The translations under genes were made by a program, and so were the position numbers. From the NCBI GenBank assembly GCA_949283305.1, contig CASDRU010000010.1, positions 1-64,000 on the forward strand: a stretch of 64,000 nucleotides of DNA, in the 5' to 3' direction. This document shows positions 45,608 to 51,542 of this stretch, piece by piece. Source of the DNA: an uncultured Spirochaetales bacterium (lineage in GTDB: Bacteria; Spirochaetota; Spirochaetia; Sphaerochaetales; Sphaerochaetaceae). Below the pieces are notes generated by a model, which did no database searches, was not told the origin of the DNA, and saw nothing but the letters and a program-made list of their open reading frames with translations. The first letter of the stretch is position 1, and every line of letters starts with the position of its first letter.

Positions 45608-48124
45608 ATGAGCAAATATCCTTTCAGAGAAATAGAAGAAAAATGGCAGAAATACTGGGAAGAGAACAAGTGCTTCAGAACAACTGAGGATCCGTCTTTT
45701 CCCAAAGAGAAAAGAAAGTATGTCCTTGATATGTTCCCATACCCATCGGGAGCAGGTCTCCATGTGGGGCATCCAGAGGGCTATACAGCAACAGACATAT
45801 ATTCCCGCTACTACAGGATGAAGGGTTACAATGTCCTTCACCCGATGGGATTTGATGCATTCGGACTTCCTGCAGAGAACTATGCGATAAAGACAGGCAC
45901 TCATCCTTATGTGACTACAAAGAAGAACATGGACAATTTCTCCCGTCAGCTCAAGAGCTTCGGCTTCTCATACGACTGGGACAGAGAAATTGCCACATGC
46001 GATGAAAAGTACTACCACTGGACACAGTGGATTTTCGAGCAGCTTTATAAAAGAGGTCTTGCATATGAGGCTCATACTCCCATCAACTGGTGTCCGAGCT
46101 GCAAAACAGGACTTGCAAACGAGGAAGTCAAGGAAGGAAGATGTGAGCGCTGCGGAGAAAAGGTCGAGAAGAAGAACATCCGCCAGTGGGTTCTGAAAAT
46201 AACAGCATATGCAGACCGCCTTCTGGAAGACCTTGATGAGCTTGACTGGCCAGAAAGCGTCAAGGCAATGCAGAGAAACTGGATCGGAAAGAGTGAAGGC
46301 GCCTCAGTATTATTCAAGCTTGAGGACTATGATGATTATCTTGAAGTATATACAACACGAGCTGACACGCTCTTCGGCGCAACTTACATGGTCATAGCAC
46401 CTGAGCATCCTTTTGTTGGGAAACTCACTACAGCGGAGCAGAAAGAAGCTGTTGAGAAATACATCGATGAGGCAAAGCACAAGAGCGACCTTGAGCGCAC
46501 GGACCTTGCAAAGGACAAGACAGGTGTGTTCTCAGGAAGTTATGCCATAAATCCGGTTAACGGAAAGAGGATTCCGATCTGGATTGCAGACTATGTCCTC
46601 ATAAGCTACGGAACAGGTGCAATCATGGCAGTTCCGGCTCACGACTCAAGGGACTGGGAGTTTGCAAAGAAATTCTCACTACCTATCATAGAGGTTCTGA
46701 AGAGCAAGGTGGATGTCCAGGAGGAAGTCTGGGAAGGAGACGGAGAGCATGTGAATTCCTCTTTCCTTGATGGAATGAACAAGAAAGATGCAATTGATAC
46801 AATGCTTTCCTGGCTTGAGGAGCACAAATGCGGACACAAGGCTGTAAACTACAAGCTCCGCGACTGGGTCTTCTCCCGCCAGAGATACTGGGGTGAGCCG
46901 ATTCCTGTAATCCACTGTCCGAAGTGCGGCAATGTCCTTGTTCCTGAAGAAGAGCTTCCTCTGACCCTTCCGGAAGTGACAAAGTACGAGCCAAGCGGAA
47001 CCGGAGAGTCTCCTCTTGTGAATGTAAAGAGCTGGGTCAGGACAAAATGTCCAGTATGCGGCTCTGATGCAGAAAGAGAGACAAACACAATGCCTCAGTG
47101 GGCAGGCTCCTGCTGGTATTATCTGCGCTATCTCGATCCGGATAACGAAAAAGAGTTCGTGTCCAGGGAGAAAGAAGAATACTGGATGCCGGTAAGCCTT
47201 TATGTAGGAGGAGCAGAGCATGCTGTCTTGCATCTGCTTTATGCAAGATTCTGGCACAAGGTGCTCTATGACCTCGGCCTTGTAAGCACAAAAGAGCCTT
47301 TTCATAAGCTAGTCAACCAGGGCATGATCACCTCTTTTGCTTATCAGAAGAAGAACAAGAGCCTTGTTCCTGTTGATACTGTAGAAGAGGTTGCTCCAGG
47401 AAAGTTCGTTGAAAAGGAAAGCGGGGAAGAAGTAACACAGGTGATTGCAAAGATGAGCAAGAGCCTTAAAAACGTCATCAACCCTGATGATTACATCAAG
47501 AACTACGGCGCTGACAGCGTGAGAATGTATGAGATGTTCATGGGCCCTCTTACTGAAAGCAAGCCATGGGCTACAAACGGCTTCATGGGTGTTTACCGCT
47601 TCCTTGACAGAATCTGGAGAATAACAACAGAAAAGGAAATTGCCGACACAGAAATGCAATCAGATCTTGATAAACTCATGCATAAGACAATAAAGAAAGT
47701 CACAGAGGATATCGAGAACCTTTCTTTCAACACTGCAATAAGCCAGATGATGGTCTATGTAAATGAAATCAACCGCCTTGATATCGTTCCTAAAAAAGCA
47801 ATGGAGACCCTTGCCCTTCTCCTTTCTCCTTTCACCCCTCACATTGCAGAAGAGATGTGGAGCATCTTTGGTCACAAGGCAAGCATCAGCAAAGAGCGCT
47901 GGCCAGAGTACGATGAGAAGAAGTGCATCGATGATGAGATTGAGTTCGTAGTCCAAATCAACGGCAAGCTGAGAGCCAAGTTCAATGCAGCTCGAGATGA
48001 AGAGAAAGATGTGCTTATAGCCAAAGCAAAAGCAGATCCTAAAGTGATTCCTTGGATTGAAGGAAAGACAATCGTAAAGGAAATAGTTGTTCCAAACAAG
48101 CTTGTGAACATCGTTGTGAAATAA
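45608..48124 (+). CDS. leuS: Leucyl-tRNA synthetase
   Basis: 838 residues, class I synthetase. It charges tRNA-Leu. The HIGH motif is HVGH (52-55) after PYPSGAGL. A zinc-like CPSCKTG...CERCG module and a full editing domain (about 220-400, with [13 protein letters not shown] and VPAHDSRD) are present. A second CPKCG/CPVCG pair lies near 440-480. The KMSKS loop is at 615-619, followed by the anticodon-binding and C-terminal domains. The upstream region gives no Shine-Dalgarno site. A terminator follows 12 bases after the stop. Confidence 0.97.
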
Positions 48125-48136
48125 AGGAGATGCAAT

Positions 48137-48163
48137 GGGGAGCTCAGGCTCCCCTCTCTTTTT
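48137..48163 (+). terminator. leuS intrinsic terminator
   Basis: GGGGAGC (48137-48143), TCAG loop, GCTCCCC (48148-48154), then TCTCTTTTT. Confidence 0.93.
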
Positions 48164-48171
48164 CACTTTTA

Positions 48172-48303
48172 GTACAAATAATTCTTTACAAGAAAAAAAT
48201 ACTCTACACTTTGCCTAGAAATTCAAAAACTAGGTGTATCATGAAGAAATTATTTGTTGCTCTACTTGTTCTGCTTTCTTTTATTGCAATCTCTTGCGAT
48301 GGA
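48172..48303 (+). repeat. Promoter-signal peptide cassette, copy 1
   Basis: About 130 bases covering promoter, ribosome site and the coding sequence of a lipoprotein signal peptide, nearly identical to 49367-49500. The copies diverge abruptly after the lipobox. The main difference upstream is an A7 tract here and A9 in copy 2. Confidence 0.85.
48185..48210 (+). promoter_or_regulatory. Lipoprotein A promoter with A7 spacer tract
   Basis: TTTACA (48185-48190), a 14-base spacer with seven consecutive A (48193-48199), TACACT (48205-48210). The spacer is shorter than the 16-18 bases seen at other promoters here, so this copy may be weak. AGGTG stands 4 bases before the ATG at 48241. Confidence 0.5.
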
Positions 48304-48756
48304 AATTTAAATAATCCCGGAAATGCTAGTGAAGAAAATATTCCCGCTGTCTCTGAAGATGACAAAACCCAAATAAATGAAATGAGACAGGAAGAAAAAA
48401 AGGCTCTCGCAAAAGATTATATTATTGATTTCCTAGATGCTTTTACAAAAGCAACTTCTGGCGAAGATATCCCCTCTTCTGTTTTGGGAATGAAAATAGA
48501 AAAAACCACTTATGGAAATTATTGCAGTTTAAGCGGCTTCAAAGGAGAAAAAGGGCAATACTGGGGATACTTTAAATACATAGAAGAGAAACAAGAATAT
48601 CCTTCAGAATGGACTATTAAAACAGAATCTCTGACATTTAAACTTAGTTTTGTTGGAAATGATATATTTGGAGGAAACAGCAGTGCATCTGATGTAAAAA
48701 TCAATGGTGAAAAAGTTTGTGATAATTTGACAATAAACACAGACGAGAAGCCTTAA
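48241..48756 (+). CDS. Small lipoprotein A
   Basis: 171 residues. The ATG at 48241 is preceded by AGGTG; in-frame codons upstream lie in the leader. The signal MKKLFVALLVLLSFIAISC ends at lipobox Cys19. The mature part begins with Asn/Glu-rich sequence and has one compact domain with a Trp-rich centre (GQYWGYFKYIEEKQ), ending in SDVKINGEKVCDNLTIN. I recognise no enzyme motif. The signal peptide and promoter are shared with lipoprotein B 1.2 kb downstream, but the mature parts are only distantly similar (both end with a KINGxxV element). Surface location is likely; function unknown. Confidence 0.8.
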   Translation: MKKLFVALLVLLSFIAISCDGNLNNPGNASEENIPAVSEDDKTQINEMRQEEKKALAKDYIIDFLDAFTKATSGEDIPSSVLGMKIEKTTYGNYCSLSGFKGEKGQYWGYFKYIEEKQEYPSEWTIKTESLTFKLSFVGNDIFGGNSSASDVKINGEKVCDNLTINTDEKP

Positions 48757-48782
48757 TCCTCATTTTATCTTCCGTGTTAAAT

Positions 48783-49286
48783 CTACTCGTTAAAATCTGT
48801 CTCATAGAAAGCAAGTAGCTTTCTCTCAATTTCTTTGTGCTTTTCTGTCTCAAGAAAATATATATGAAAGAGTTTGCCTTTTCTCCACAAAGAAAGAACA
48901 TTTTGATTCATTTTACAGTTAGTTGGTTGTCCTTTTTCAAAACAATTCCTCGGACTTATTTTTCCATATCCTGAAGAGAATCTCTTTCTCAGGTTCTTTG
49001 CCTCACCTATATATGACAGCTTTGGATTGCCATCAACAAGCCAGACATATACCCCGCATCCTGTAGGCAGGCTATCCATTTTGAAAGCTGTAAATTCTGT
49101 TTTCTTCTTACAGTGCTTGTTTAAGGGCAGTCCTTTTTTGTTGTTATATCTTTCCTGTGGCCTGTCTGTGACTACAGATCCGTCTTCATTTCTCTTTGGC
49201 TCGATATATCCCGCAGATGTAAACCTTAAGCTTTCATCCCTTGTTTTAAGAATAAGAAAATTTCCTTCTATTTTATAGCCTTCCAT
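48783..49286 (-). CDS. GIY-YIG-type nuclease-domain protein
   Basis: 167 residues. GVYVWLVDGNPKLSYIGEAK (about 78-97) followed by NLRKRFSSGYGKISPRNC matches the GIY-YIG fold: the first two strands with GVY and YIG, then the conserved Arg. A late Asn-rich segment TNCKMN and Glu residues in the C-terminal half could complete the metal site. Such proteins include homing endonucleases, restriction enzymes and phage-derived nucleases; specificity is unknown. A perfect AAAGGAGG precedes the ATG. It lies in opposite orientation between two copies of a lipoprotein promoter cassette, suggesting a mobile or rearranged segment. Confidence 0.75.
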   Translation of the reverse strand: MEGYKIEGNFLILKTRDESLRFTSAGYIEPKRNEDGSVVTDRPQERYNNKKGLPLNKHCKKKTEFTAFKMDSLPTGCGVYVWLVDGNPKLSYIGEAKNLRKRFSSGYGKISPRNCFEKGQPTNCKMNQNVLSLWRKGKLFHIYFLETEKHKEIERKLLAFYETDFNE

Positions 49287-49366
49287 TTTTCGCCTCCTTT
49301 TGATTTATCATAAGCTCATCCTCCAGAATTTTACTATCAGAAAAATTTAGAAAATCTTGTCTGCTG

Positions 49367-49500
49367 GTACAGATAATTCTTTACAAGAAAAAAAAATACT
49401 CTACACTTTGCCTAGAAATTCAAAAGCGAGGTGTAATATGAAGAAATTATTTGTTGCTCTACTTGTTCTGCTTTCCATTCTTGCAATCTCATGTGATGGA
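49367..49500 (+). repeat. Promoter-signal peptide cassette, copy 2
   Basis: Second copy of the cassette at 48172-48303, in direct orientation, about 1.2 kb downstream. It carries nine consecutive A in the promoter spacer and a few substitutions before the ATG and at the lipobox. Confidence 0.85.
49380..49407 (+). promoter_or_regulatory. Lipoprotein B promoter with A9 spacer tract
   Basis: TTTACA (49380-49385), a 16-base spacer with nine A (49388-49396), TACACT (49402-49407). AGGTG lies 4 bases before the ATG. Spacing is within the functional range, unlike the A7 copy. Confidence 0.55.
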
Positions 49501-49887
49501 AACACAGCTACTCCGGATGCTCCTGCAGTAAACACAACAGGAACTGAATTCATCAATAAGTATCTGAATGAAGGCAATTCGGCTATGGATGCAATTGGCG
49601 AGATTCTCTATATGCCTGTCTCCGCGATAGGTGAAAATGGCCGCCTTATTCCTGGTTCCTATGAAAACGGAACAATTATTGTAGTAAATCCTATGGAGGT
49701 TACATATAAAGGCTTTAAGAGATCAGCTGAAGAAAATGAAGCTATAAAAGAAGGAACAGAAATCATAATCTGGGGAGATTCTAGGAATTTTACCGCAAAA
49801 CTTGATGATGATGTTTTCTCAGTTACATCATCACTTAGCTTAGACGAAGGTCTTACCTACAAAATTAACGGCGTAGAAGTCAATTGA
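49438..49887 (+). CDS. Small lipoprotein B
   Basis: 149 residues. The signal MKKLFVALLVLLSILAISC (lipobox Cys19) is almost identical to that of lipoprotein A. The mature protein is unrelated or only remotely related in sequence: a short Ala/Pro-rich linker, then a compact domain with FINKYLNEGNSAMDAIGEIL and a C-terminus IIIWGDSRNFTAKLDDDVFS...LTYKINGVEVN. No enzyme motif is recognised. Transcription depends on the A9 cassette promoter. A terminator follows 31 bases after the stop. Confidence 0.8.
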   Translation: MKKLFVALLVLLSILAISCDGNTATPDAPAVNTTGTEFINKYLNEGNSAMDAIGEILYMPVSAIGENGRLIPGSYENGTIIVVNPMEVTYKGFKRSAEENEAIKEGTEIIIWGDSRNFTAKLDDDVFSVTSSLSLDEGLTYKINGVEVN

Positions 49888-49952: not shown

Positions 49953-51246
49953 TTGAGGAAAGAAGCCAGGCCGCATATAAAGGAACAGAAAAGAGCCCGT
50001 CTTCAAAACCGAAATTCCTTGTAGACAGCCTGATGCTCAAAGAAGGATTATAAGTGTTCCTATATACGGACAGGCTTCTTGATCTGACATGCTCTCCTGC
50101 CTTGACCTCTACTGGAACCACATCTGTTCCATGCTGCATGAGAAAATCTATTTCAGCTCTTCCTGATGATTCCCAGTAATAAAGAGGCATCCCCGCTGAG
50201 GCAAGTGTTGCTGCGACATAATTCTCTGTAAGGCCTCCGATAAAACGTTCCCCTATCTGATTCAGAATTATCTCGCAAGGGAGACCGGACAGCCTGACCA
50301 AAAGACCAGGGTCCAGCAGATACAACTTGAAAGATGAAAGATCTTCATAAGCCTTTAGCGGAATGTCCGGAGCAGAAACCTTTGAACATCTGAGGGTAAG
50401 GCCTGCATCGCATAGCCATTCCAGAGATTTCCCAAATAGCGAGGAAGTTGCACCTTTTCTTATCAGATTGTATTGAAATTTTCTGTTCTCCTTTGCCAGC
50501 TGTGCAGGAATAGTATCGAAAGCTCGGTGAGAAAGTACCTTCTGAGAGTTTTCTGCATACTTTGCAATATCCGCTCTGTAATCAGAAATGATTTCTTCCT
50601 GCACCTCCCCTGCTTTGACATAGCTCTCTTGATCAATAAATGTTTTCACAACTTCTGGCATGCCCCCGATAACAAGGTACATTCTGTAAATAGAAAGCAG
50701 TTTCTCATGCAATGCTGAAGACAAAGGAGTTCTCTCTAAAAAAGAAGTGCGGCAATGTTCCAGCAAAATGTCTTTGCCCAGGGCAATCAGGAATTCTTCA
50801 TAATCCATCGGAAACAGACGCTCTGTCCTCACCTTCCCTACAGGAAAGGAAAAACCCTCACGGTTTATTGCTACACCAAGAAGACTTCCTGCTCCTATCA
50901 CAAAAAAGTCCTCGGCGCTGTCGCAGAAATACTTTAAGGCAGTTATTGCCCTTGGACATGCCTGAATTTCATCAAGGATGATAAGTGTTTTTCCCTTTAC
51001 GAATGAAACACCAGATATAGCTTCAAGCTGTGCAATTACAACATCTGGAGCAAGATCTCCGTCAAAAACTCTTCTTATATTAGGATTTTTCTCAAAATCA
51101 ACGGAAATGACAGAATCAAATTCCTCTCTTGCAAATTTTTCCATGACATACGATTTCCCCGTCTGTCTGGCACCTGTAATTAGCAAAGGTTTACGTCCCT
51201 GTGTTTCCTTCCACTCTTTTAATGTTCTCTCTATCTTCCTGTACAC
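49945..51246 (-). CDS. AAA_14/DUF4143 ATPase
   Basis: 433 residues, GTG start. The N-terminal ATPase has Walker A GARQTGKS (25-32), Walker B LIILDEIQ (about 88-95) and an Arg-rich sensor region. The C-terminal DUF4143 domain ends with a PD-(D/E)XK-like pattern, RAEIDFLMQ...VVPVEVKAG. The family is widespread in anaerobes, often in multiple copies near mobile or defence genes, with no firm function. TAAAAT with an extended TGC lies 6 bases before the GTG, another leaderless start. It is divergent from the AAA/TOPRIM pair with a 296-base spacer. Confidence 0.88.
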   Translation of the reverse strand: MYRKIERTLKEWKETQGRKPLLITGARQTGKSYVMEKFAREEFDSVISVDFEKNPNIRRVFDGDLAPDVVIAQLEAISGVSFVKGKTLIILDEIQACPRAITALKYFCDSAEDFFVIGAGSLLGVAINREGFSFPVGKVRTERLFPMDYEEFLIALGKDILLEHCRTSFLERTPLSSALHEKLLSIYRMYLVIGGMPEVVKTFIDQESYVKAGEVQEEIISDYRADIAKYAENSQKVLSHRAFDTIPAQLAKENRKFQYNLIRKGATSSLFGKSLEWLCDAGLTLRCSKVSAPDIPLKAYEDLSSFKLYLLDPGLLVRLSGLPCEIILNQIGERFIGGLTENYVAATLASAGMPLYYWESSGRAEIDFLMQHGTDVVPVEVKAGEHVRSRSLSVYRNTYNPSLSIRLSTRNFGFEDGLFSVPLYAAWLLSSKE

Positions 51247-51252
51247 ACCATT

Positions 51253-51261
51253 ATTTTAGCA
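51253..51261 (-). promoter_or_regulatory. DUF4143 ATPase extended -10 promoter, leaderless configuration
   Basis: On the minus strand TGC-TAAAAT (TAAAAT at 51253-51258), 6 bases, GTG start at 51246. The -35 region is weak, as is usual for extended -10 promoters. Confidence 0.5.
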
Positions 51262-51471
51262 TAAATGATTTTTAAATCCAGAAAAATCATTCTTTAGTGA
51301 TTAAATTGAAGATAAAAATCTCTTTAATTGTTTATTATGATATTGGATGGAAAAAAGATTCGAAATGACTCTCAAGGCAACTGTGGGAGAAGATACAGGT
51401 CTAACAGGCGGAGGAACTCTTTGTGGGGAAGAATATTCTGGAGTTTTGTCTTCTGTTTGATGAAATTTAAT

Positions 51472-51499
51472 GGTGCACTTCTTTGAGCACTCTTTTTTT
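51472..51499 (+). terminator. Weak terminator-like hairpin ahead of the AAA/TOPRIM pair
   Basis: GGTGC...GCACT arms with an A-A mismatch, followed by TCTTTTTTT. It could insulate the downstream operon from read-through. Confidence 0.4.
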
Positions 51500-51526
51500 G
51501 CCTTCTCCTCTTCTCTGTATTAAAAT
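51498..51526 (+). promoter_or_regulatory. Promoter of the AAA/TOPRIM operon
   Basis: TTGCCT (51498-51503), 17 bases, TAAAAT (51521-51526). This predicts a leader of about 10 bases that still contains GGAG ahead of the ATG at 51543. Confidence 0.6.
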
Positions 51527-51542
51527 ATGAGTGGAGATTGAC

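Follow-up and report, generated by a model that had tools for sequence, protein, structure and literature searches.

Promoters with homopolymer spacers before lipoprotein genes of Candidatus Ornithospirochaeta, candidates for phase variation by tract slippage

Two otherwise different lipoprotein genes downstream of leuS in a spirochaete of the chicken-gut type share a nearly identical promoter and signal peptide segment, the two copies differing in length only by an A tract of seven or nine bases between the predicted −35 and −10 boxes. Comparison across the genus showed that these putative A-tract promoters belong to a conserved class found mostly before lipoprotein genes. We lean towards slipped-strand phase variation of the lipoprotein promoters as the explanation, with A9 likely the ON state and A7 a weak or OFF state. 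The locus lies in a window (the whole stretch of DNA analysed, 64,000 nucleotides) of a MAG of 1.49 Mb in 22 contigs, 96% complete and assigned to Candidatus Ornithospirochaeta (Spirochaetota).

The shared segment behind leuS

In the window, leuS ends at 48124 and is followed by its terminator-like hairpin (48137–48154, plus strand), upstream of the first cassette. Next come lipoprotein gene 1 (48241–48756, plus strand; 171 aa), a GIY-YIG domain protein that separates one cassette from the other (48783–49286, minus strand; Pfam PF01541, E = 5e-4, under its gathering cut-off), lipoprotein gene 2 (49438–49887, plus strand; 149 aa) and an AAA_14/DUF4143 ATPase on the minus strand. Both lipoproteins carry a lipobox, with the cysteine at residue 19, and would be surface or envelope proteins; a lipobox is also present in most of the genes behind such promoters in relatives. 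A Pfam scan of both lipoproteins matched no family, profile comparison of their bodies by hhalign did not show homology (probability 2%), and their predicted structures (pLDDT 41 and 53) were too poor for use.

Copies 1 (48172–48305, plus strand) and 2 (49367–49502, plus strand) of the segment span 134–136 bp at 91% identity, a likeness that is not due to chance since the blastn E value is 3e-49. Similarity begins 13 bases ahead of the −35 box and stops just past the lipobox cysteine, and the abrupt divergence after the cassette described in the earlier note was recovered in the alignment. That note had also put the near-identical stretch from −35 box to lipobox at about 130 bases; the near identity holds, and the length is corrected to 113 bp, about 134 bp being the entire shared stretch, in which similarity is uneven, with a breakpoint near codon 13 inside the signal peptide. 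Consensus calls place promoter 1 at 48185–48210 (plus strand; 52 bits with a genus promoter model), with TTTACA at 48185–48190, TACACT at 48205–48210 and a 14-bp spacer, and promoter 2 at 49380–49407 (plus strand; also recognised by the model), with TTTACA at 49380–49385, TACACT at 49402–49407 and a 16-bp spacer. Between these consensus hexamers both promoters contain a homopolymer, A7 at 48193–48199 and A9 at 49388–49396 (both plus strand), the latter being one of 13 genome-wide A/T runs of exactly 9. The local alignment of the two copies holds one gap, of two bases, inside the A tract; the reported difference of A7 from A9, and of 14 from 16 bases in the spacer, is thereby borne out as the sole indel. 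When the window was scanned for the consensus with 16–18 bp spacers, promoter 2 was found and promoter 1 was not.

Comparison with a sister species (G020), the nearest relative among the genomes compared, revealed an uneven ancestry of copy 1. There, leuS is followed by a lipoprotein of the lipoprotein 2 type (60% identity to lipoprotein 2), the ATPase and a lipoprotein of another type, and the GIY-YIG protein of the window is missing at the corresponding place; at the site of the second G020 cassette lipoprotein, the window has just a short intergenic stretch (51246–51531). The promoter and codons 1–12 of copy 1 are of the lipoprotein 2 type, those codons (48241–48277, plus strand) matching copy 2 at 37 of 37 bases, silent sites included. 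Past codon 13 lipoprotein 1 instead resembles the second G020 gene, as it does in some short motifs of the body (29% identity over the mature protein). Informative sites side with copy 2 against the second G020 gene by 13 to 1 before the breakpoint and by 5 to 12 after it (Fisher P = 7e-4, an optimistic value because the breakpoint was picked from the same data). Copy 1 is a mosaic, and we attribute its 5′ segment to recombination or gene conversion. The modularity claimed earlier is supported by this mosaic and by another relative (G024), in which a promoter of about 100 bp is common to different lipoproteins with G11 against G12, an arrangement like that of the window.

An ordinary duplication of a lipoprotein gene, with fast-diverging bodies, a 5′ end held by purifying selection and an incidental A7/A9 difference, would fit the presence of two such genes behind leuS in G020 as well, each body in the window having its own counterpart there. 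Against it stand the perfect match of codons 1–12 down to silent sites, the shift of allegiance past codon 13 and the occurrence of the same promoter class in front of further genes elsewhere in the genus; since the mosaic already tells against it, this account appears improbable to us. Still less credible is a mobile expression cassette placed in front of resident genes, which the earlier note had proposed. One 5′ segment does precede different bodies here, with similar sharing in G024; however, the further copies that the note had proposed looking for were sought in the MAG by blastn, by pattern and with the promoter model, and none was found besides the two at this single locus. The mobile cassette is unsupported because the genome holds only these two copies; furthermore, no terminal repeats were seen in the copy alignments, and Pfam annotation of the neighbours (leuS, the GIY-YIG protein and the AAA_14/DUF4143 ATPase) gave no transposase or recombinase. 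Lipoprotein switching driven by a recombinase (Vpma type) was considered separately and rejected, the copies being direct, not inverted, repeats and the scanned flanking genes containing no recombinase domain.

Promoter classes with A and G tracts across the genus

When the flanking bases were included in the pattern, just six sites were retrieved in 48 genomes (one match for the reversed control). A sequence model trained on seven promoter copies identified 21 sites at E<1e-3 among genomes of the genus, defining the consensus TAAATnTTKACAGG-A(6-10)-TACnC-TAnnnT (core TTKACA-NN-A6..A10-TACnC-TAnnnT); outside the tract, conservation extends over ATAAnTnTTKACARG on its 5′ side and TACTCTA on its 3′ side. 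Reading of the translations assigned 16 of the genes behind these sites to lipoproteins, with signal peptide and lipobox. The other five sites comprise one gene cut by a contig end, one site without a clear gene and three other proteins (in G068, G063 and G027), these last counting against phase variation. Of the 14 sites that did not serve to train the model, at least 10 precede lipoproteins, compared with 42 of 1441 genes in the genome under study, a proportion far from chance, although some of those genes are mutual orthologues. An unbiased poly-A pattern yielded 23 sites against 11 in reversed controls; this excess is only twofold, far weaker than that for poly-G, and the class therefore depends on its flanks no less than on its tract. 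Upstream A tracts of at least seven bases within the genome under study were not significantly enriched before lipoproteins (4 of 42, versus 61 of 1276; P = 0.15).

A parallel class carries G tracts. The pattern TTGACA-N2..14-G8-N0..6-TATNNT gave 49 matches, among which a single site appears two times, across 21 of the 48 genomes, with no match for the reversed pattern and one when C replaced G. The tracts, of G8–G12, lie directly before the −10 box, and lipoprotein genes were read behind 38 of the 40 sites inspected (L117–L136 and L137–L156). Isolated cases occur in other Spirochaetia, several of them in a single family, perhaps that of the treponemes. The genome under study has five G tracts of at least eight bases: three immediately precede lipoprotein genes, a fourth precedes another reading frame, and the fifth, close to a contig end, has no clear gene behind it. 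At C9:549, a G8 tract lies five bases upstream of the start codon (ATG) of an 819-aa lipoprotein; it might therefore influence translation instead of the promoter. Separately, an insertion-sequence-like end, CTACCTTTTGGGGGTTAGTTCA, adjoins a poly-G tract in all three of its copies in this genome (C3:30748, C5:13046 and C11:36771), where at C11 the opposite strand carries a transposase-like reading frame, and a similar end lies beside a poly-G tract in G061 (L064). Judged from these positions, a preference of the insertion sequence for poly-G promoters is possible.

Tract length and the case for switching

Across 23 sites the A tract measured A9 in 12, A7 in four, A8 and A10 in three each and A6 in one. 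An orthologous promoter in G033 and G064 is identical over roughly 120 bp save for A9 in the former and A7 in the latter, the two lengths that also distinguish the window copies, and a further pair (G017 and G071) differs by A9 versus A10. The G071 orthologue of the G017:C1 lipoprotein (G071:C27, L113), with the A10 tract, has also lost 4 bases from its signal peptide region, which shifts the frame. All these length differences lie between species or between loci, the window being read from one consensus genome. Counting against phase variation, A9 is the length not only in copy 2 but also in the two G020 copies, hence in three of the four nearest copies, and length has not changed in those orthologues. 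In its favour, A/T runs of at least nine bases are depleted in the genome under study (15, versus about 55 expected from a first-order Markov model; tract counts cover 1.491 of 1.493 Mb), yet one of them lies in copy 2. Missing mismatch repair was rejected as a cause of instability, MutL being present in all 18 genomes of the genus searched; its presence suggests that slippage may be slow, or dampened in short A tracts.

According to the reading that we favour, the variable locus holds two small lipoprotein genes, each with a predicted sigma-70-type promoter and an A tract in the spacer, in which replication slippage would alter the distance between the −35 and −10 boxes. A9 (16 bp) would then fire and A7 (14 bp) would be weak or silent, turning lipoprotein expression on or off. 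Poly-G spacers probably act likewise for many lipoproteins of related species, and would be better candidates than A tracts for frequent switching. The possibly phase-variable lipoprotein system put forward in the earlier note gains comparative support from the conserved promoter class, the A9/A7 difference between identical flanks and the poly-G class, and is a plausible reading.

The A tract could instead be a static structural element, bending the DNA or forming part of a regulator site with the conserved TAAATATTKACAGG flank, its length drifting neutrally without switching. Conservation on both sides of the tract, the predominance of A9, the presence of MutL and the modest excess of unbiased poly-A sites all accord with such a promoter. 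In contrast, tract length is the sole variable in otherwise identical promoters, where a 2-bp change takes the spacer from 16 to 14, and the parallel class with G tracts, found within this genus and before this type of gene, argues that length matters; on balance we consider a static element rather unlikely.

Returning to slippage, relatives with dozens of lipoprotein promoters containing A or G runs suggest that surface lipoproteins are probably switched through run length. More tentatively, Candidatus Ornithospirochaeta may possess a genus-wide contingency system of homopolymer-spacer (A or G) promoters dedicated to lipoproteins and spread by recombination of 5′ segments, with an insertion-sequence end beside poly-G tracts.

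Implications and relation to known systems

If this reading is correct, a large group of uncultured gut spirochaetes varies its lipoprotein coat at many loci by promoter slippage, extending to commensals a mechanism studied in the syphilis spirochaete. It would furthermore add an A-tract form, reveal how switch promoters pass from one lipoprotein gene to another and supply promoters that could be tested with metagenome reads already at hand. Run-length slippage itself is an already known mechanism and the genus would be its new setting; among open-licence papers, no published report of such switching in Candidatus Ornithospirochaeta was found.

The vlp paralogues of Mycoplasma hyorhinis have their promoter and 5′ region in common. 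These lipoprotein genes switch through a promoter-region poly-A tract (PMC10502178, a review), and the window likewise has an A tract in the promoter region and lipoproteins as the gene type; unlike vlp, the genes described here belong to an unrelated phylum and are candidates for switching. The Treponema pallidum gene tp0126 has a poly-G tract between its −35 and −10 boxes and is transcribed best when the tract gives a spacing of 17 bp (PMC7864442). Like tp0126 (and the poly-G promoter phase variation of tprE/G/J/L), our case concerns a spirochaete and genes of outer-membrane type, as predicted here, and the tp0126 homopolymer likewise sets the −35/−10 spacing. Here, in contrast, the tracts are poly-A in the window and poly-G in relatives, lipoproteins are the candidate targets, some species having several of them in one genome, and switching is a prediction. 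The tp0126 and vlp examples make the slippage reading plausible by analogy, and it is now better supported than before. In porA of Neisseria meningitidis, a poly-G spacer makes output dependent on spacing (cited in PMC7864442); the homopolymer within the spacer is the shared feature, while porA, in contrast to the promoters described here, is a single porin gene with poly-G.
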